DNA of 42,740 bases, from IMG/VR virus record IMGVR_UViG_3300010883_000094, positions 1-42,740 of that record, one strand, 5' to 3'. Under the pieces are notes generated by a model. That model was not told the DNA's origin, searched no databases, and worked only from the letters and a program-made list of their open reading frames with translations. This DNA is from a virus. Made by a program: the position numbers and the translations under genes. This document shows, piece after piece, positions 357-22,759 of this stretch (positions are counted from its first letter, which is position 1; each line of letters starts with the position of its first letter).

Positions 357-2777
357 ATGAGCGGTATAGAAGAAGTAGCAAACTACCTCCGAGAGAGGGT
401 CGAGAAAGTTAATCCTAATAATCCCAAGGCAAACTCTGGTGCAGTACTTCTTAAATTTTATTCTAAGTTTAACGAAGAGGCAGAGAAAGTAGTTGTTATG
501 GCAACAGACATAATACAAGCTTTCTTTTCCAGAGACACAAGGGCAGTACCAGCAGGTAAGGCCAAGCTCACAGCGCTATCCACGAGGATAGGGTCCACGA
601 TAACTAAGTACATAACAAAAGAAACAATGTCTTGGCGTAATGAGATATGTTTAGGGGATCTGATGTTAGAAGCCTTCCTACAACGAGGCTATATAAAAAT
701 CTTTAGAGACCCAGGATTCTCTGAGTTAGATAAAGACGCACCGTTTATGGTTGAGCCTACAAGCTATTGGGCTGAGATAAATATAATACCTATAGCAGAA
801 GACAGGGACGTTCTTGTCGCAACCCACCACAACGAACCCGTAGAGATAAACAACTTGTTCAGAGGTGGAAGGCCCATTATTAAAGGCTGGGATGATGAAA
901 ACTCTAAAGAGTTTAATAGGTTACTTAACAGACCCTTTGTTAACGCAGCTAATAAGCTTGAACGACAAGCCTGGAAAGTAAATAAAAAGCTTTACGATGT
1001 TATCAATAGTAAGTTGTTAGATATTTTACCTAACATACCTGATATGCCTGAAGAAGGATCTAAGTTAGATCTTAAGAACGCTTACCGGGCAATGAAGAAG
1101 AAAGATAATAAGAAAACCAGGGACCGTTATAACAAGACAGCTGCCTTGTGGAATAGAAAGCTTAATGTATTACGCTCTATGTCTAAGACTAACGAGATAA
1201 GAATAACTCTACGTAAGGCAGAGGCTATGTTAAACCTTGAGGTGTTCTATCAGACTATAGAGTTCGATTATCGTGGTCGCATCTACTATAGAGAACCTTT
1301 CCTAAACTACCAAGGTAGTGATATGGCTAGAGGGCTTATGATGTTTGCTGAAGGGGCCCAGCTGAACGAAGACGGAGTAGCAGCCCTGAAAGTACACACG
1401 GCTAACTCCTTCAATCAGAACTATAATATAAATGAAATACCTAGCTGGGTTGAGTGGAACTACAAAGAGTATCTTGAGAAGGAAGGCTTAGATAATATCT
1501 CTGTAGATAAAATGTCTTTAAATGATAGGGTAATGTGGTGTGAGGAGAACGCTGACATGATTCTTATGACAGCCACCGATAATACTATACATGACTGTGA
1601 AAAACCTTTTGTATTTTTAGCTTGTTGCTTTGAGTGGGCAGCCTTCGAAGCTGATCCTGAACATAAGGTCTGTATACCTACTCCTATTGACGGTACTTGT
1701 AACGGTTATCAACACTCAGCTGCGATAGCTAAAGATGGAGAAACAGGCTTGTACGTAGGTCTTGAGGATACTACTATCCCTGTAGACTTATACATACAAG
1801 TTGCTAAAGAATTATTATCTTCTGAGAAACAATTCTTTGAGGATAGAGGGATGAACTTATCTCAGATAAGAAAAGGAATAGCCAAGCGGGCCACAATGAC
1901 TAGGGCTTACTCGGCCGGAGAAGAAACAATAGCAGACAGTATGTTCAGTGATCTATATCAGTTCGGTTATGATATTAAGTTTAATATTTCTATGTTAGAC
2001 TGTGAACACTTAGCTAAGAAAATAATAGAAGCTATTGCTAAGGTCTGTCCTGGTGGGCAGAAGACAATGAAGTACTTACAGAACCTAGCTGCCTACGAGC
2101 TAGGTATGTTCACAGTATATGATAAGAACGGAGATGTAGTCTCCCTCAACCAAAGAAGAAAGGATTATGAAAAGGCGAAGAAGATGAGAGCACAACTCAG
2201 AGAAGAACCAGATAATCTAGAACTACTTAAACAACTTAATGAGATCTCTAATGATATGACCAGAAGAACTAGCGTTCTTGAAAGAGGTAACGGCAGTAAT
2301 TATATTAGCTGGTCAGCCCCTTCAGGCTTCCCTATAAGGTACGAGTCTTTCTTAACAAGATCAGAGAAATGTTTATCCACGTTAAGAGGAGTAGAAGGTG
2401 GTCAGAAGAGCCAGCCAGGTCGCATCAGACACGTAGCCCAGGTATCTACTGAACACGCAGATAAACGAGCGTTCGCAGCAGGCATATCACCTAACTACAT
2501 TCACTCACAAGATGCAGCTCACATGGCTATAGTAATTAGTAAGTGGAATAAAGCCTTCGGCGCAGTACATGACTCCTTTTCCACTCATCCTAATGATATC
2601 AAGGAGTTATCCCAGATAACACGAGACGTGTTCAGGGAAATGTATGAGAAAGATAATGTGTTTGAACAGATAAAAGAAAACATCTTGTCTAAATCAGAGC
2701 AGTGTGATGTAGTAGTGCCTGATAACGGTGATCTAGAGATTGAGTTAGTCTCTGACTCTACTTACTTTTTCGCGTGA
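357..2777 (+). CDS. T7-type single-subunit DNA-directed RNA polymerase
   Basis: This 806-aa protein (T7 enzyme 883 aa) should transcribe middle and late phage genes in the host cytoplasm from phage-specific promoters. All catalytic motifs are present in order: the DxxGR motif DYRGR at 304-308; motif A IDGTCNGYQH with metal-binding D445 (T7 D537); motif B KRATMTRAY with K510 and Y518 (T7 K631, Y639); and motif C VHDSF with H738 and D739 (T7 H811, D812). The chain ends in YFFA, like the T7 C-terminal FAFA foot that lines the active site. A strong AAGGAGAG ribosome site precedes the ATG. The gene follows the helicase, whereas in T7 the polymerase gene precedes it. No phage promoter consensus could be derived from this window. 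Confidence 0.97.
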   Translation: MSGIEEVANYLRERVEKVNPNNPKANSGAVLLKFYSKFNEEAEKVVVMATDIIQAFFSRDTRAVPAGKAKLTALSTRIGSTITKYITKETMSWRNEICLGDLMLEAFLQRGYIKIFRDPGFSELDKDAPFMVEPTSYWAEINIIPIAEDRDVLVATHHNEPVEINNLFRGGRPIIKGWDDENSKEFNRLLNRPFVNAANKLERQAWKVNKKLYDVINSKLLDILPNIPDMPEEGSKLDLKNAYRAMKKKDNKKTRDRYNKTAALWNRKLNVLRSMSKTNEIRITLRKAEAMLNLEVFYQTIEFDYRGRIYYREPFLNYQGSDMARGLMMFAEGAQLNEDGVAALKVHTANSFNQNYNINEIPSWVEWNYKEYLEKEGLDNISVDKMSLNDRVMWCEENADMILMTATDNTIHDCEKPFVFLACCFEWAAFEADPEHKVCIPTPIDGTCNGYQHSAAIAKDGETGLYVGLEDTTIPVDLYIQVAKELLSSEKQFFEDRGMNLSQIRKGIAKRATMTRAYSAGEETIADSMFSDLYQFGYDIKFNISMLDCEHLAKKIIEAIAKVCPGGQKTMKYLQNLAAYELGMFTVYDKNGDVVSLNQRRKDYEKAKKMRAQLREEPDNLELLKQLNEISNDMTRRTSVLERGNGSNYISWSAPSGFPIRYESFLTRSEKCLSTLRGVEGGQKSQPGRIRHVAQVSTEHADKRAFAAGISPNYIHSQDAAHMAIVISKWNKAFGAVHDSFSTHPNDIKELSQITRDVFREMYEKDNVFEQIKENILSKSEQCDVVVPDNGDLEIELVSDSTYFFA

Positions 2778-3249: not shown

Positions 3250-3253
3250 AATA

Positions 3254-3291
3254 AAAAACCCCAAGAATCTTAATTGATCCTTGGGGTTTTT
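3254..3291. terminator. Bidirectional intrinsic terminator between convergent operons
   Basis: A perfect 12-bp inverted repeat (AAAAACCCCAAG at 3254-3265, CTTGGGGTTTTT at 3280-3291) encloses a 14-base loop. T-rich runs follow on both strands. It lies between the plus-strand gene ending at 3249 and the minus-strand gene ending at 3297, so one hairpin can stop transcription from both sides. Confidence 0.92.
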
Positions 3292-3296
3292 AATTT

Positions 3297-6200
3297 TTAA
3301 TACACTAAATTGTTATTCCATTTTTTAACTCTACTCATTAACTCTCTAAGTTTTTTATTTTCAGAGTCTGCTTTCACTTTGCGACCCATTCCATCTGTCC
3401 TTTGACTAGTTATCATTGCTTTAAGCATTGCAGAATAAGAAGAGTTAGGTGTAGCTTTATACTTTCTACCTGTAGCGCTGACTCTATTTATATAATCATC
3501 TCTATTCCCTAGATTACTTTTCCATTGACTAGTAGCAGACAAGCCTAAACTTTCTTCTATAAGAGTTAAAAGTCCTGCGAATTCTTTCCCGTCAACTCTC
3601 ATAGTTGCTCTTATAAAATCTGAATTAGGATCATTAGAGTTAGGAGGTTCGTAGCCTAATTTTTTAGCTTCTTCTATAATAACTTTATTGTATTTTGTTT
3701 GTTGTTCAACTTGATTTGCTACTTGAGGCCTAGCTAATTCTCTAGGGCTGTAAAAGCTATTATCATTTATTCTAGCATTTATTTTATCTAAGTAGGCAGT
3801 GACACCGGAAAACCCACTTAATTCTCCCTTAGAAGAAGCAGTTTTAACCGTAGATAAACTAACTAAAGGAGGTTCTTCTCCTGCTATAACAGCAGCGTTA
3901 TAATCCCCTAAGTGTTTTTCTCTTAAAGATTCTAATTGATTCCCCATACTACTAATAACAGAGCTCATAACTTCTGGGGCTCTTTGAGCTGCCATGTGGT
4001 AGGCTATGTTATCATAAGCATTTTTAAATTTGAGAGTAGAGCCTGCAGTAGTTATACTAGCGTCGTGAATACCTAATTGATTTAAAGGTTTACCGTCAGG
4101 TTTTGAAGCCATTAAAGCTGCTACAAACATCATATAAGCATCAGCTGATTGTACTAAGTCTACAGGTATAGCATTAGTAACTTGACTACCTAACTCTCCT
4201 GGGTTATCATTAACTATACCAAGTTCTTTGGCTAGTTCGAAAGATCTTTTCTTAATATTATTAGCGGAAGAGACACCTGAGTCGTTTACTTTTACATAAC
4301 GACCTAGCTCATAGTCTACCTGGCCTATATTCATTCTTTCCGGGTCGCTTTCTGCTAACAATCTTTCTTTGATTTCTCTACTAACATCATGCATTGGAAG
4401 GAGATTATCTTTAGCCAGAGTTATAGGCCCTAAAAATCCCTCTATATCCGTAGAACCATTAATCATAGAGATTATAGTGCCAGTACCCTTCATAAAGTTT
4501 TGATACTTATACAAAGAACCCATAGAAGCTTTCATAGAGCTAGTAAAAATTTCAGCTAAATCTTCTTCCATTTGTTTAGTGTTGCCCCCATACTCACTCT
4601 CTAAATCTTTCATAATGTCTTCATCTAAAGCATTGATTTGATCAAACATTTCTCTTGCTTCACTATACATTTTTCTAGAAGTTTTACCGTACAAACCAGC
4701 AACTACTAAACCCCTAGCGTATAACTTAGCAGGGTTAGCTCCCTCTAAGTTATTTATTTTATTAAAGAAATTTTTATAGGCTTCTTTTCCTGGTCTATCT
4801 TCAGGCCCTGTTAAAGCATTTTCAACATCATTTTGTATATTCTTCCATATTTTATCTCTTAGATCCCCAAACTCTCTAGTGTCTACTCCTTCTAGCAAAC
4901 CTAAAGTTAAGGCTATTTCTGTATCTCCCATGATTAAAGACATATTAGCTGCATTAGATTGGGTAGCATCCATTTCCATTGTGTAATCAAATTTAACTAA
5001 GCTACTTCCTGGAATTCCTTGTTTAATATTTTCTAGTTTAATAGCTTGAGATAACACACTAACAGGATACATCCACTCACCCTTGTGACCATTAATTAGC
5101 CCTTGCAGTTCAGTAGATAGTCCTTCAAAAGAATCAGGCTGCTGTTGTAGCTGTTCGTTTGTCATTCCACTTAATTTAGCTTGACCCTCTTGCCATCCAA
5201 CTATTTCCTTAGATAATCCTACGGCTGTTTTAAAATTAGTTAATCCATGCCTAACTGCCGCTACAGGGTCTGAGAATTTTATCCCATTCATTTTACCTAA
5301 CACTAACCCTAAAGCATAATGATAATCTAATAGCTGCATATCTTTTTCTGGTAGAGCATCTAACTTTTGTTTAACAGTATAGCCTAAATTAACTCCACTA
5401 GTACCATCAGTACTTAAAGCAGATTTAGCTAAACGCATTACTTTACTATTCTCAATATTATTACTAGGTACTTCTAAATCAGCTGAAGTTACAGTGATAG
5501 GGTCTACGTTAGCAAAAGAAAGTGCCATTCTTATAACGCCTTTTCCATTCATATACTGTAGATCTCTTACTGCAGCAAAGACTCTGTTAGTAGCTTGAGA
5601 CTGTACGTGATTAATGAATCTAGTTTCTCCATCAGCAAAGATAGGTCTAATTTTTTCTTCTAAATCTCTTTGTATACCGGCCCAATTAATGTCTATTTGT
5701 CTTTGAGCTTGTTGAGCAAAAGTATTTTCAGGGTCTTCAAAAAGAGTTTTAAATAGAATTTCCTGATGCAGGTGTAATCTTTCATCTTGTCTAGCCCGTT
5801 TAGCTCTTCTTAAATATTTCTTAAAAGATTTAGGCCCTACTTCTCCTAAGGTCTCAGCCATAGGGTGAGGTATTCCTCCGTTCATTCCTGTTTGACTTTT
5901 ATCTATGGCTCTTTTCATATCAAAAACCATTTTAGTCATCATCTCATAGCCCAAAGGATTTATTTGTATTCCTACATTACTTCTATCTGTCAAGTATTGT
6001 TCTGCTATTTTGTCATTACCTTCTAATGACTTACCGTTTTTGGCTATACTAATATTTCTTTTTTCACTTGCAAATTTATTTTTATTAAATGGAGTTCGTT
6101 GTGCATTAGGGTAGTTTATATTAGGGTCTCTTAAGTTAGCCAAGTAAGCTTTGAGTAGTATATCGTTACCAAAAGTATTTAATACGTTATCTGAGGTATT

Positions 6201-7343
6201 AATAGGCACTACTCTGCCTTGTTTGTTAACCCCCCAACTAATCATACCTTTTTCAGTCATATACTCTAGGAAAGCAGCTGCACCGTAGTTACCTTTAACC
6301 CCTACATCTTGCCCATTATTTAATAGAGAAGACATAGTAGAGCGAACACCTCCTAGCATACTTCTAAGAATAGGTTGAGAATCAGGTCTTCTAAAAGCTT
6401 TATGTAATAGTTTTAAGGATTTAGCAATTCTCTCTTCAGGGTTTAGAGAAGAATCTTTAGCGTTAACTGCTCTCATGTCATTTTCTAGAGCAACTCCCTC
6501 TTCGAATTCATCTGCTTTAGAACCTAAGTGTTCATTACCTTCTTCATTCATTCCGCCGTGATATTTAAATGTAGCTATACCTTTAGATAATTCCATAGCA
6601 GCTACTGTAGCAACACTGCCAAAGTTATTTACGTTAACATCATTTAGTCCAAATTCTTTTTCCATTTTTTCGTAGACTATTTCGTCGCCCTCACTATGTC
6701 TCTTTAAAAAAGGGGTGCTTGGAAAACTTCCATCCGAATTAATCCTGATTGAATTGTCAAAGTCTTCTGTTAACTCTGCCATACCGTCTAGTCTTTTAGT
6801 GTTAGTGAAAGCTCTTATCTTAGCGTCTGTTTGAGATCTTGCGCTTTCTTGTAACTCAGATGGTGTTAGAGGTGCAGTATCATCTGCTTCTTTTATCTCT
6901 AATGCCTGTAACTCAGGAATAGAAGGTGCAAATTGATTTAGAGTGTCAGTAATTCTTTGACGCGACCCAGCTAATTCAGTAGGGGCATTAGGGTCTCTTC
7001 TAAAGTCAGGAAGTCTTGTTTCAACATCAAGAGCAATGTTACTAGTTTCAATATCTCTTTGCCTTAATTCTTCTACAGTTGATGGGGGAACAGGGTACTG
7101 AGTTCTCTGACCTCCAGCAACACCAGATTGCAATCCAGTAAAAGTTTGCCCAGGGACTTGCTCACTTATTAAAGGTTCTACCGCAGAGGTTCTATCGGTA
7201 GTTGCTGTAGTTGCCATAGTCTTATTTAGCAAGCCTACAGGATCAATAGCTGTAGCTAAATCTTCTACCATACCATCAGTACTCGTAACGGGAGGAGCTA
7301 ATGGTGCTTTTCTTTGAAGGGTACTGCCTGCTTTTACGAACAT
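3297..7343 (-). CDS. Putative virion-carried RNA polymerase (N4 vRNAP-like), 1348 aa
   Basis: The last gene of the late operon, placed directly after the ejection proteins. The central part shows the polymerase core of the T7/N4 family. Motif A: DYTMEMDATQSNAANMSL with D792 as predicted metal ligand, ending LIMGD where T7 has MLRD. Motif B: K873-x3-R877-x7-Y885-G886, the spacing of the N4 pattern R-x3-K-x7-YG with the two basic residues exchanged. Motif C: GIHDAS with H1093 and D1094. Before motif C, IPVDLVQSAD matches T7 IAPNFVHSQD. Spacings D792-Y885 (93) and Y885-D1094 (209) fit the family (T7 102 and 173). The T/DxxGR motif is not clear; the best candidate lies near 597-640. The N-terminal 550 residues and C-terminal 230 are unassigned. 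GGAG precedes the ATG. By position it is probably packaged and injected. Confidence 0.8.
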   Translation of the reverse strand: MFVKAGSTLQRKAPLAPPVTSTDGMVEDLATAIDPVGLLNKTMATTATTDRTSAVEPLISEQVPGQTFTGLQSGVAGGQRTQYPVPPSTVEELRQRDIETSNIALDVETRLPDFRRDPNAPTELAGSRQRITDTLNQFAPSIPELQALEIKEADDTAPLTPSELQESARSQTDAKIRAFTNTKRLDGMAELTEDFDNSIRINSDGSFPSTPFLKRHSEGDEIVYEKMEKEFGLNDVNVNNFGSVATVAAMELSKGIATFKYHGGMNEEGNEHLGSKADEFEEGVALENDMRAVNAKDSSLNPEERIAKSLKLLHKAFRRPDSQPILRSMLGGVRSTMSSLLNNGQDVGVKGNYGAAAFLEYMTEKGMISWGVNKQGRVVPINTSDNVLNTFGNDILLKAYLANLRDPNINYPNAQRTPFNKNKFASEKRNISIAKNGKSLEGNDKIAEQYLTDRSNVGIQINPLGYEMMTKMVFDMKRAIDKSQTGMNGGIPHPMAETLGEVGPKSFKKYLRRAKRARQDERLHLHQEILFKTLFEDPENTFAQQAQRQIDINWAGIQRDLEEKIRPIFADGETRFINHVQSQATNRVFAAVRDLQYMNGKGVIRMALSFANVDPITVTSADLEVPSNNIENSKVMRLAKSALSTDGTSGVNLGYTVKQKLDALPEKDMQLLDYHYALGLVLGKMNGIKFSDPVAAVRHGLTNFKTAVGLSKEIVGWQEGQAKLSGMTNEQLQQQPDSFEGLSTELQGLINGHKGEWMYPVSVLSQAIKLENIKQGIPGSSLVKFDYTMEMDATQSNAANMSLIMGDTEIALTLGLLEGVDTREFGDLRDKIWKNIQNDVENALTGPEDRPGKEAYKNFFNKINNLEGANPAKLYARGLVVAGLYGKTSRKMYSEAREMFDQINALDEDIMKDLESEYGGNTKQMEEDLAEIFTSSMKASMGSLYKYQNFMKGTGTIISMINGSTDIEGFLGPITLAKDNLLPMHDVSREIKERLLAESDPERMNIGQVDYELGRYVKVNDSGVSSANNIKKRSFELAKELGIVNDNPGELGSQVTNAIPVDLVQSADAYMMFVAALMASKPDGKPLNQLGIHDASITTAGSTLKFKNAYDNIAYHMAAQRAPEVMSSVISSMGNQLESLREKHLGDYNAAVIAGEEPPLVSLSTVKTASSKGELSGFSGVTAYLDKINARINDNSFYSPRELARPQVANQVEQQTKYNKVIIEEAKKLGYEPPNSNDPNSDFIRATMRVDGKEFAGLLTLIEESLGLSATSQWKSNLGNRDDYINRVSATGRKYKATPNSSYSAMLKAMITSQRTDGMGRKVKADSENKKLRELMSRVKKWNNNLVY

Positions 7344-20887: not shown

Positions 20888-22759
20888 TTATATTTCACAA
20901 GCACCCCCGGTGCAAGCTAAGGTTTGAGCACCCTCGGTATTATCTGTATCTTCATAATCAGATAATTTATTAAAGTTTATTTGAGAAGGGAAATTATGAA
21001 AGGCTTTTTCATACTCTTCTTCTCCAATATCTTGATAAGGCGCTTGAGCGTAAGTATGTTCTGAGTAAGGCAGAAAACTTATTCCTGATACTAGATCAAA
21101 GTTCTTGTAAACCCAACTACCCACCTCAAGCCACTCATCTTCTTTAACATAAATGGTAACTGAAGGTTTATGCTCACACCAGTGCATAGCAAATAGTTTC
21201 CAATTTTCAAGTTGTTCTATAGCGGACTGGTCATTGGCCATAATAGCCGACTTAGGTGAGCTGATAGGAAAACTAAAAACTGAAGTGTTATTAGGGTTCA
21301 TTACATCGTCTTCATAAGGGACTCCTTCGTCCATTAAGAAAGCTGTAATCGGGTCCTTTTTATCTTGACGTACTGTTCGTATGTAGTAAGGTGCGAACCT
21401 ACCGTGTATTCCTGAAGCAGAGTTTACTAACTGGCTTACGGTACCACTGGGTTTAACACAAGTTATTGCAGTAGAACTAGAAATATTTAATAACTTAGCG
21501 TATAACTCATTGGTTTCTATAGCAATATTCTTTAGATAGATTAAATCTTCCGCACTAGGTTTCTGTAATATTTTACAGTCCTGTATTCCTGTAAGAGAGA
21601 CTCCAAGTAATCTTTCGGCCTCTGTATTTTCTTTCCAGACTTTCCTCAGATAAGTGAAGTCTGTAAGAGTAGATTGCAAGGTACCTAGGATAGTAGCTAA
21701 CTTAACTTTTTCTCCTAGCTCATCTAAAGTATCATTTTCTCTACAGATTACTTCACTGAGGTTACATACTTGATTCGGCCTAAGAATTATTTCTGAACAA
21801 GGGTTTGTACCCCAGGCAAAACCTGTTTCTCTTCTCATAGACTCTGCTACTTTTTTATCTGCAGCTTCTCTAGAAAAAATTCCTCGTTCTCCCGAACCAG
21901 ACTTTATCAGAGATATCCATTCTTCTAAGAAAACGGGTAAGCTAGGCTTAGACTTGTAGACAGCAGAGTTATTTGCAAGAGCAAAGTGCGCTTCGTTTTC
22001 CCACCACGCCCCACTCTTAGCATCTCTCATTTCCCTGTCACCAAGGTCACTAAGAGAAATCATAGCTGATCTTCTTACTCCACCGACTACTACTACTTCA
22101 CCTATCTTACACATAATAGAATGACACTCTATTGAGGTAAGTTTTCTTCCCGCTGCTTTTCTAAAAGTGGCTTCGGTAAAAGATAATAGATCTTCCAAGG
22201 GATCTGGCCCTGAGGCTCTTCCTCCCATAGTATGTAGTCTTGCCCCAGCAGGCCTAACCTGACTGAAGTCAAACTTATGTACTCTACCCAGGTAAAGATC
22301 TGCAATGTGCTTTCTTAAAGCTTTAGCCCAACCTTCTTTAGAGTCCTCTACAATGATAACTCTATCTGAACTTTCAAAGTGATCGTTTACTATAGGTAAT
22401 TTACTTATATTTTCGCTCTCAACACTGAAGCCTACACCGGTACCTGACATAAGTACAAACATAGTTTCGTCAAAAGTCCTTGGGCTGTCTACTGCTACGT
22501 AACTACAGTTATAACCCGCCATATTGTTTTTCTCTAGAGCAGGACCAGCACACCACATACTTCTCATAGATGGCATTACTTGTTTATTCTCTACAGCAAA
22601 TCTTAATTCTTCAAATAAAGTGTCAGGTAGGCTATTTACGCGGCCCTTCCAAAAGTCGATTAATCTCTGCACCGTTTCTTCCCAAGTTTCTCTTCGACCT
22701 TTATTGTCTAGCCAACGGGAATAGCGACTTAGATGAATAATCTGTTCGTAGATATCCAT
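20888..22759 (-). CDS. nrdJ: Class II (adenosylcobalamin-dependent) ribonucleotide reductase, monomeric type
   Basis: A 623-aa enzyme that reduces ribonucleotides to deoxyribonucleotides with coenzyme B12 as radical source, feeding phage DNA synthesis. Compared with Lactobacillus leichmannii RTPR (739 aa) all active-site residues are present: C85 (C119), the radical cysteine C321 (C408), E323 (E410) in NPCSEI, C332 (C419) in QVCNLSEV with the same 11-residue spacing, the PSGTVSQL phosphate loop, and the C-terminal redox pair C616-x4-C621. It is shorter than the bacterial enzyme. AGGAG lies eight bases before the ATG. It sits in the late minus-strand block between the lysis cassette and the nozzle, away from the replication genes, directly behind a terminator. 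Confidence 0.96.
   Translation of the reverse strand: MDIYEQIIHLSRYSRWLDNKGRRETWEETVQRLIDFWKGRVNSLPDTLFEELRFAVENKQVMPSMRSMWCAGPALEKNNMAGYNCSYVAVDSPRTFDETMFVLMSGTGVGFSVESENISKLPIVNDHFESSDRVIIVEDSKEGWAKALRKHIADLYLGRVHKFDFSQVRPAGARLHTMGGRASGPDPLEDLLSFTEATFRKAAGRKLTSIECHSIMCKIGEVVVVGGVRRSAMISLSDLGDREMRDAKSGAWWENEAHFALANNSAVYKSKPSLPVFLEEWISLIKSGSGERGIFSREAADKKVAESMRRETGFAWGTNPCSEIILRPNQVCNLSEVICRENDTLDELGEKVKLATILGTLQSTLTDFTYLRKVWKENTEAERLLGVSLTGIQDCKILQKPSAEDLIYLKNIAIETNELYAKLLNISSSTAITCVKPSGTVSQLVNSASGIHGRFAPYYIRTVRQDKKDPITAFLMDEGVPYEDDVMNPNNTSVFSFPISSPKSAIMANDQSAIEQLENWKLFAMHWCEHKPSVTIYVKEDEWLEVGSWVYKNFDLVSGISFLPYSEHTYAQAPYQDIGEEEYEKAFHNFPSQINFNKLSDYEDTDNTEGAQTLACTGGACEI

Follow-up and report, generated by a model that had tools for sequence, protein, structure and literature searches.

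Why would a phage that encodes an ordinary T7-type RNA polymerase (RNAP) carry, facing it at the end of the ejection genes, a second large protein with the catalytic motifs of the same class of enzyme? The question is raised by a 42,740-base IMG/VR virus record without terminal repeats (IMGVR_UViG_3300010883_000094; the window), in which the open reading frame (ORF) at 3297-7343 encodes a protein of 1348 amino acids (aa). The first-pass annotation had recognized this ORF and its length, to which the minus strand must be added, and had proposed a virion-type polymerase; the T7-type RNAP gene next door (357-2777, plus strand) went unmentioned. The catalytic motifs are conserved across a family of relatives, and the predicted models match the fold of single-subunit RNA polymerases (ssRNAPs). 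Phage N4 injects a virion RNA polymerase (vRNAP) to begin early transcription. In all probability the 1348-aa protein is likewise a catalytically competent ssRNAP that is packaged, injected and used for early transcription until the T7-type RNAP takes over, the last two steps being proposed by analogy with N4.

Catalytic motifs and predicted fold

Among 50,697 phage records, the sole annotated relative is gp33 of Roseobacter phage CRP-7 (QBQ72826.1; 27% identity, E 6e-70), which its record labels 'hypothetical protein'; the CRP-7 genome paper, in the text available, mentions no RNA polymerase other than the T7-like RNAP (ORF30) (PMC6918029). A viral scan using the window protein alone returned no relatives, and a two-sequence alignment with CRP-7 gp33 was needed. 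This alignment led to twelve IMG/VR contigs, and a later scan added a thirteenth (L040). The family members are 1231-1498 aa long. No member was found in a scan of bacterial and archaeal genomes, and sequence searches of Pfam, PHROGs, NCBIfam and the PDB, using single proteins and the family profile, gave no match. Specifically, none of 11 members matched Pfam PF00940 or the vRNAP family model phrog_2206, against which N4 itself scores 1230 bits.

The residues named in the first-pass annotation (D792, K873, R877, Y885-G886, H1093-D1094 and the segment IPVDLVQSAD) are all found at the positions it gave (Table 1). In a 14-sequence family alignment, whose members are at 24-31% identity, D792, K873, Y885, G886, H1093 and D1094 are invariant (14/14) and R877 is retained in 13 of 14 sequences. 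The blocks MExDAxQSNA, AKxYxRGLVVAGLYGK, NAxPVDxxQxxD and IHDA are among the best conserved of the whole protein. When the protein is shuffled, 68 of 20,000 sequences (about 0.3%) contain a loose version of the A-B-C pattern. Because the same residues are invariant across a family this divergent, conservation confirms, at the level of sequence, that the motif match lies well beyond chance. E790, located two residues ahead of D792 and also invariant in the family, matches N4 E557. This Glu is kept in all of 15 Schitoviridae vRNAPs and is missing from the T7-type RNAPs that were compared; in N4 it holds and stabilises the phosphates of the initiating (+1) nucleoside triphosphate (PMC4496689). 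A further conserved block upstream of motif A (S582 to R605) may correspond to the T/DxxGR motif and to the K437/R440 region of N4 mini-vRNAP, a tentative match made by eye.

AlphaFold2 models were built from 12 sequences, for residues 230-1348 (predicted local distance difference test score, pLDDT, 62; predicted template modelling score, pTM, 0.57) and for the core, residues 530-1275 (pLDDT 65, pTM 0.58; core-model numbering is the residue number minus 529). In the core model, D792 ends a strand (259-263) that is followed by a helix, K873, R877 and Y885 share one helix (342-356), and H1093-D1094 lie between strands 560-563 and 566-570. As modelled, motifs A, B and C thus have their canonical arrangement.

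A structural match to the RNAP palm and fingers fold had been set beforehand as a check, and such a match was obtained. The companion check, that the named residues should not lie far apart in a confident model, is addressed indirectly, by their placement in the expected secondary-structure elements of models of modest confidence. Foldseek comparison of the 230-1348 model with the PDB placed ssRNAPs in all of the top 44 positions (best E 1.4e-7, probability 1.00). These include yeast mitochondrial RNAP (1.4e-7), T7 RNAP (2.7e-6), N4 mini-vRNAP (3c46 at 2.9e-6 and 2po4 at 6.7e-6) and whole N4 gp50 (1.4e-3); DNA polymerase I comes next, at E 0.05 and worse. The core model retrieved 33 ssRNAPs consecutively with probabilities of about 1.00, after which the probability drops to 0.08. 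In a viral structure library, an entry of 1235 aa, the length of CRP-7 gp33, ranked first, followed by RNA polymerases that include the pSb-1 vRNAP (3.2e-7). When the profile of the core family was compared by hhalign with that of 15 Schitoviridae mini-vRNAPs, the score was 42.2 (P 4e-4), the best of 60 block-shuffled controls reaching 29.1. The alignment pairs IPVDLVQSAD...IHDA with N4 GIPFMTIGTGD...IFDG, which is the correct register.

Gene neighbourhood and signs of packaging

Cysteine content sets the protein beside known ejection proteins. N4 gp50, gp51 and gp52 and T7 gp15 and gp16 are ejected proteins, and together they contain no cysteine in 6,359 residues. The family likewise has none in about 15,000 residues, all 13 members counted, and the two large neighbours of the 1348-aa protein (1373 and 947 aa) and their CRP-7 counterparts are also cysteine-free. 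The phage polymerases, helicase and primase that were counted have 6-14 cysteines each. The remaining genes of the window average 0.54% cysteine, so that about seven would be expected in a protein of 1348 aa, although the absence of cysteine is not an exclusive sign, as some other structural proteins in the window are cysteine-free too.

A related contig, L003, differs from the window in one block. Its T7-type RNAP is 99.9% identical to that of the window, and from about 12.4 kb of the window onward the DNA of the SLT-protein gene agrees at 97%. In the interval from about 3.0 to 12.4 kb the DNA similarity breaks down, and the two polymerases share 31% identity. The diverged stretch comprises the polymerase, the 1373-aa protein and the C-terminal end of the SLT protein, with the breakpoint near 12.4 kb falling inside the SLT-protein gene. 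The L003 ORFs that correspond to the diverged genes are intact. A chimeric assembly is formally possible, but the intact frames, and flanks that match at 97% in DNA on either side, favour a genuine exchange of a cassette made up of the polymerase and ejection genes.

The gene had been described as the last of the ejection module, and it does directly follow the 1373-aa and SLT-protein genes at the end of the late operon, only 4 bases separating it from the former. The leftward genes (3297-42719) are mainly structural, with the ejection genes at their end. Across a stem-loop with a T-run, a putative transcription terminator by inspection, the polymerase gene faces a rightward operon that ends with the T7-type RNAP and one small ORF. 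A convergent T7-type RNAP gene is found just downstream in 13 of 13 IMG/VR loci, in CRP-7 and in the window; these single-chain enzymes are about 806-829 aa long and contain 11-14 cysteines. From the gene position, the absence of cysteine, the divergence of the gene as one cassette with an ejection gene in L003, and the constant presence of a convergent, cysteine-rich T7-type RNAP, we infer that the 1348-aa protein is packaged and ejected. The virion-type label of the first-pass annotation is thereby supported indirectly, by gene position, cysteine absence and the probable cassette exchange.

The other leftward genes encode the portal (phrog_1216), scaffold, major head protein (phrog_1328), tail fibres and a ribonucleotide reductase; the early region is not contained in the window. 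In the Pseudomonas phages KPP25 and phiR18, structural proteins match residues 1053-1299 of the 1373-aa protein (E 9e-6 to 5e-5). The ribonucleotide reductase gene, which sits inside the structural operon, is intact in the window (20888-22759). In CRP-7 (gp44-gp46, L042:35552-38170) it is annotated as two pieces flanking a small ORF, a split resembling that made by an intron or homing element.

Table 1 Features of the polymerase locus in the window and conserved segments of the 1348-aa protein.
Feature	Position	Strand	Remarks
1348-aa predicted polymerase gene	3297..7343	-	Final gene of the leftward late operon; no cysteine
Large ejection-type protein, 1373 aa	7348..11469	-	No cysteine; diverges with the polymerase gene in L003
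Internal virion protein with transglycosylase (SLT) domain, 947 aa	11488..14331	-	No cysteine; PF01464 3.6e-13; phrog_342
Ordinary T7-type RNA polymerase, 806 aa, 11 cysteines	357..2777	+	PF00940 E 1.9e-55; phrog_414 5e-106
Stem-loop with T-run, 47 bases, AAAAAACCCCAAGAATC...GATCCTTGGGGTTTTT	3250..3296	.	Between the two convergent polymerase genes
Conserved block S582-x2-T585-x-R587-x-F589 ... K601-G602-x2-R605	5529..5600	-	All seven residues invariant where the region is present
Motif A, E790-M-D792-A-T-Q-S-N-A	4950..4976	-	E790, D792, A793, Q795, S796, N797, A798 invariant; D792 is the predicted catalytic Asp
Motif B (O-helix), K873-x3-R877-x7-Y885-G886-K887	4683..4727	-	Invariant except R877
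IPVDLVQSAD (1059-1068), ahead of motif C	4140..4169	-	In register with T7 IAPNFVHSQD and N4 GIPFMTIGTGD
Motif C, I1092-H1093-D1094-A1095-x-I-T	4050..4070	-	H1093, D1094, A1095 invariant; predicted catalytic Asp D1094 aligned with N4 D951

Proposed mechanism and rival explanations

In the proposed mechanism, a predicted single-subunit DNA-dependent RNA polymerase of the T7/mitochondrial/N4 fold would be synthesised late and stored in the head as an ejection protein beside its 1373-aa and 947-aa neighbours. It would then be injected ahead of or together with the DNA and would transcribe the phage early genes as the DNA enters the cell. The T7-type RNAP made as a result would run middle and late transcription.

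Several observations weigh against this proposal. Model confidence is modest in both cases, and the TM-scores of the best PDB matches are mostly 0.25-0.46 over whole chains; therefore the modelled domain arrangement is untrustworthy. The profile-profile probability to N4 vRNAP is just 28-34%, with motif C alone covered. The proposed alignment of IPVDLVQSAD with T7 IAPNFVHSQD reappears in the same register when hhalign is run against a T7-type profile, but the match is not significant. The enzyme could not be linked to any promoter family. Finally, the claimed agreement with the T7/N4 motifs holds for motifs A and C and for the spacing, but not for the order of the basic residues in motif B. 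Compared with the O-helix of ssRNAPs, the spacing, the Tyr-Gly pair and the helix are present, but the sequence reads Lys-x3-Arg, the reverse of Arg-x3-Lys-x7-Tyr-Gly in T7 and N4, and one member, L014, has Gly at the R877 site.

The same alteration of motif B is what a degenerate protein of the ssRNAP fold might display, one that is ejected and acts in the ejectosome solely as a channel or as a component that pulls DNA; T7 gp16, of comparable size and place, is indeed not a polymerase. However, both catalytic Asp residues, the motif A Glu, the motif B Tyr-Gly and the motif C His-Asp are invariant while most of the protein drifts around them, a pattern that suggests a working active site, and loss of activity is considered unlikely. 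An equally unlikely arrangement is a working ssRNAP that stays out of the particle and acts as a late second polymerase within the infected cell. A second T7-like RNAP gene has been reported in phage Peru-2 (PMC13320782). Yet the protein lacks cysteine entirely, like the injected T7 and N4 proteins, whereas the adjacent RNAP has 11, and its gene lies 4 bases behind ejection genes with which it diverges as a cassette.

Motifs A, B and C are shared with family A DNA polymerases and primase-like enzymes. The loose motif pattern is also found in a second T7 frame, of 710 residues, that fits T7 DNA polymerase gp5 by length and place, and DNA polymerase I does appear lower in the Foldseek list. Nevertheless, the best ssRNAPs are ahead by five orders of magnitude in E-value, the His-Asp of motif C stands in a T7-type QxxD...HD context, and in CRP-7 a DNA polymerase is annotated separately. 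The Foldseek ranking was the ground for rejecting a family A DNA polymerase, and an identity of this kind is very improbable. Still less credence is given to a chance resemblance in a helical structural protein, for which the lack of sequence family matches and the share of shuffles that reach the loose pattern might be cited. The same residues are invariant family-wide and the structure matches are exclusively to ssRNAPs; the fold search thus refutes chance resemblance at the level that predicted models permit. An active, injected ssRNAP is accordingly the preferred reading.

Relation to known polymerases and candidate promoters

The 1348-aa protein resembles N4 gp50 in the ssRNAP fold, the E-x-D of motif A, the motif C catalytic Asp in register and the absence of cysteine. 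In the window and CRP-7, as in N4, the gene is the last of the late operon and faces the early/middle operon, and a partner phage RNAP would serve the later genes. In contrast, the family lacks a sequence match to phrog_2206, and its members are far shorter than N4 gp50, which has about 3500 residues with N- and C-terminal domains. Motif C is His-Asp, as in T7, rather than the Phe-Asp of N4, and Lys and Arg of motif B are swapped relative to N4. The partner is a single 806-aa chain instead of the heterodimeric gp15/gp16 RNAPII. The phages share the portal family, but the major capsid protein belongs to phrog_1328 here and phrog_1357 in N4. Since the phrog_2206 match, the size and the partner RNAP all differ, the protein, by the tests applied, would resemble N4 vRNAP in its working but falls outside the Schitoviridae vRNAP family.

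CRP-7 gp33 is a homologue with the same position and neighbours, and is cysteine-free. The T7 RNAP family (Autographiviridae gp1 and mitochondrial RNAP) shares the fold, motifs A, B and C, the HD dipeptide and the QxxD segment. It differs by an identity of about 10-12%, measurable by structure alignment only, and by the lack of a PF00940 match, and the protein described here has several hundred extra residues, no cysteine and a gene in the late operon. T7 gp16 has a similar size, is likewise encoded at the end of the ejection genes and lacks cysteine, but it is not a polymerase, and its transglycosylase domain sits here on the separate 947-aa protein.

N4 vRNAP promoters are hairpins with a 5-7 bp stem and a 3-nucleotide loop located ahead of early genes. 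The CRP-7 early leader contains one perfect hairpin with a 5-bp stem and a 3-nucleotide loop (378-390), which is not conserved in L054. Two hairpins (L042:335-345 and 1136-1146) are conserved, also in L054 and L057; they share the loop region CCTGTAATGGG on different, longer stems and have no match in Rfam. Located before early genes, they could be promoters of the injected polymerase or another RNA element. The annotated start of CRP-7 gp03 (1142) falls inside one of these loops and is probably wrong.

Other candidates were discarded. The hairpin block with the strongest conservation, in the leader of an early gene of CRP-7 and two relatives, corresponds to a type II hammerhead ribozyme (RF02276, E 9.4e-9 in CRP-7; L042:570-633, L054:4363-4426, L057:12303-12366). 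The repeat TAGTCCNNTATTAAAAGG has 4 exact copies at gene starts in 50 kb of CRP-7 (L042:2027, 7148 and 14765 on the plus strand, 38262 on the minus strand), 5 matches versus 0.8 expected when up to 3 mismatches are allowed, and no copy in the window. A T7-type or host promoter, or a leader element, is a likelier identity for it than a promoter of the injected enzyme. Sigma-70-like sites occur in the early leader in slightly lower number than in shuffled sequence, a signal too weak for use. In L054, the sequences at positions 58106 and 1, the ends of the linear CRP-7 record MK613349, adjoin each other; the record was thus opened at an arbitrary point, which lies within the early leader.

Injected single-subunit RNA polymerases are regarded as a hallmark of the Schitoviridae (PMC12633501). 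A vRNAP outside that family has been claimed for vB_PunP_Y3 (PMC11654794), and that of StenR_269 was assumed from size, lack of cysteine and helix content (PMC10747016). The present family is best described as a virion-type RNAP of compact size outside the Schitoviridae, accompanied by a complete T7-type RNAP. It is possible, although we lean against it, that it represents a second virion-RNAP lineage, perhaps recruited to the head independently of N4 gp50, in a marine podovirus that transcribes with two polymerases of its own; a compact injected polymerase would then serve the early genes and a complete T7-type enzyme the rest.

The injected-polymerase role has so far been linked almost wholly to the N4 phage family, and the present proteins would add a compact kind of vRNAP that escapes all family models tried. 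Very probably, the marine phage of the window, CRP-7 and 13 metagenome relatives keep a gene for a second, virion-borne RNA polymerase of the T7/N4 kind, and the phage group is reported to be widespread in the ocean (PMC6918029). As CRP-7 is cultured, with FZCC0042 as host, packaging and host-independent early transcription are directly testable, and a polymerase a third the size of that of N4 may reveal which part of the giant enzyme ejection and transcription need.

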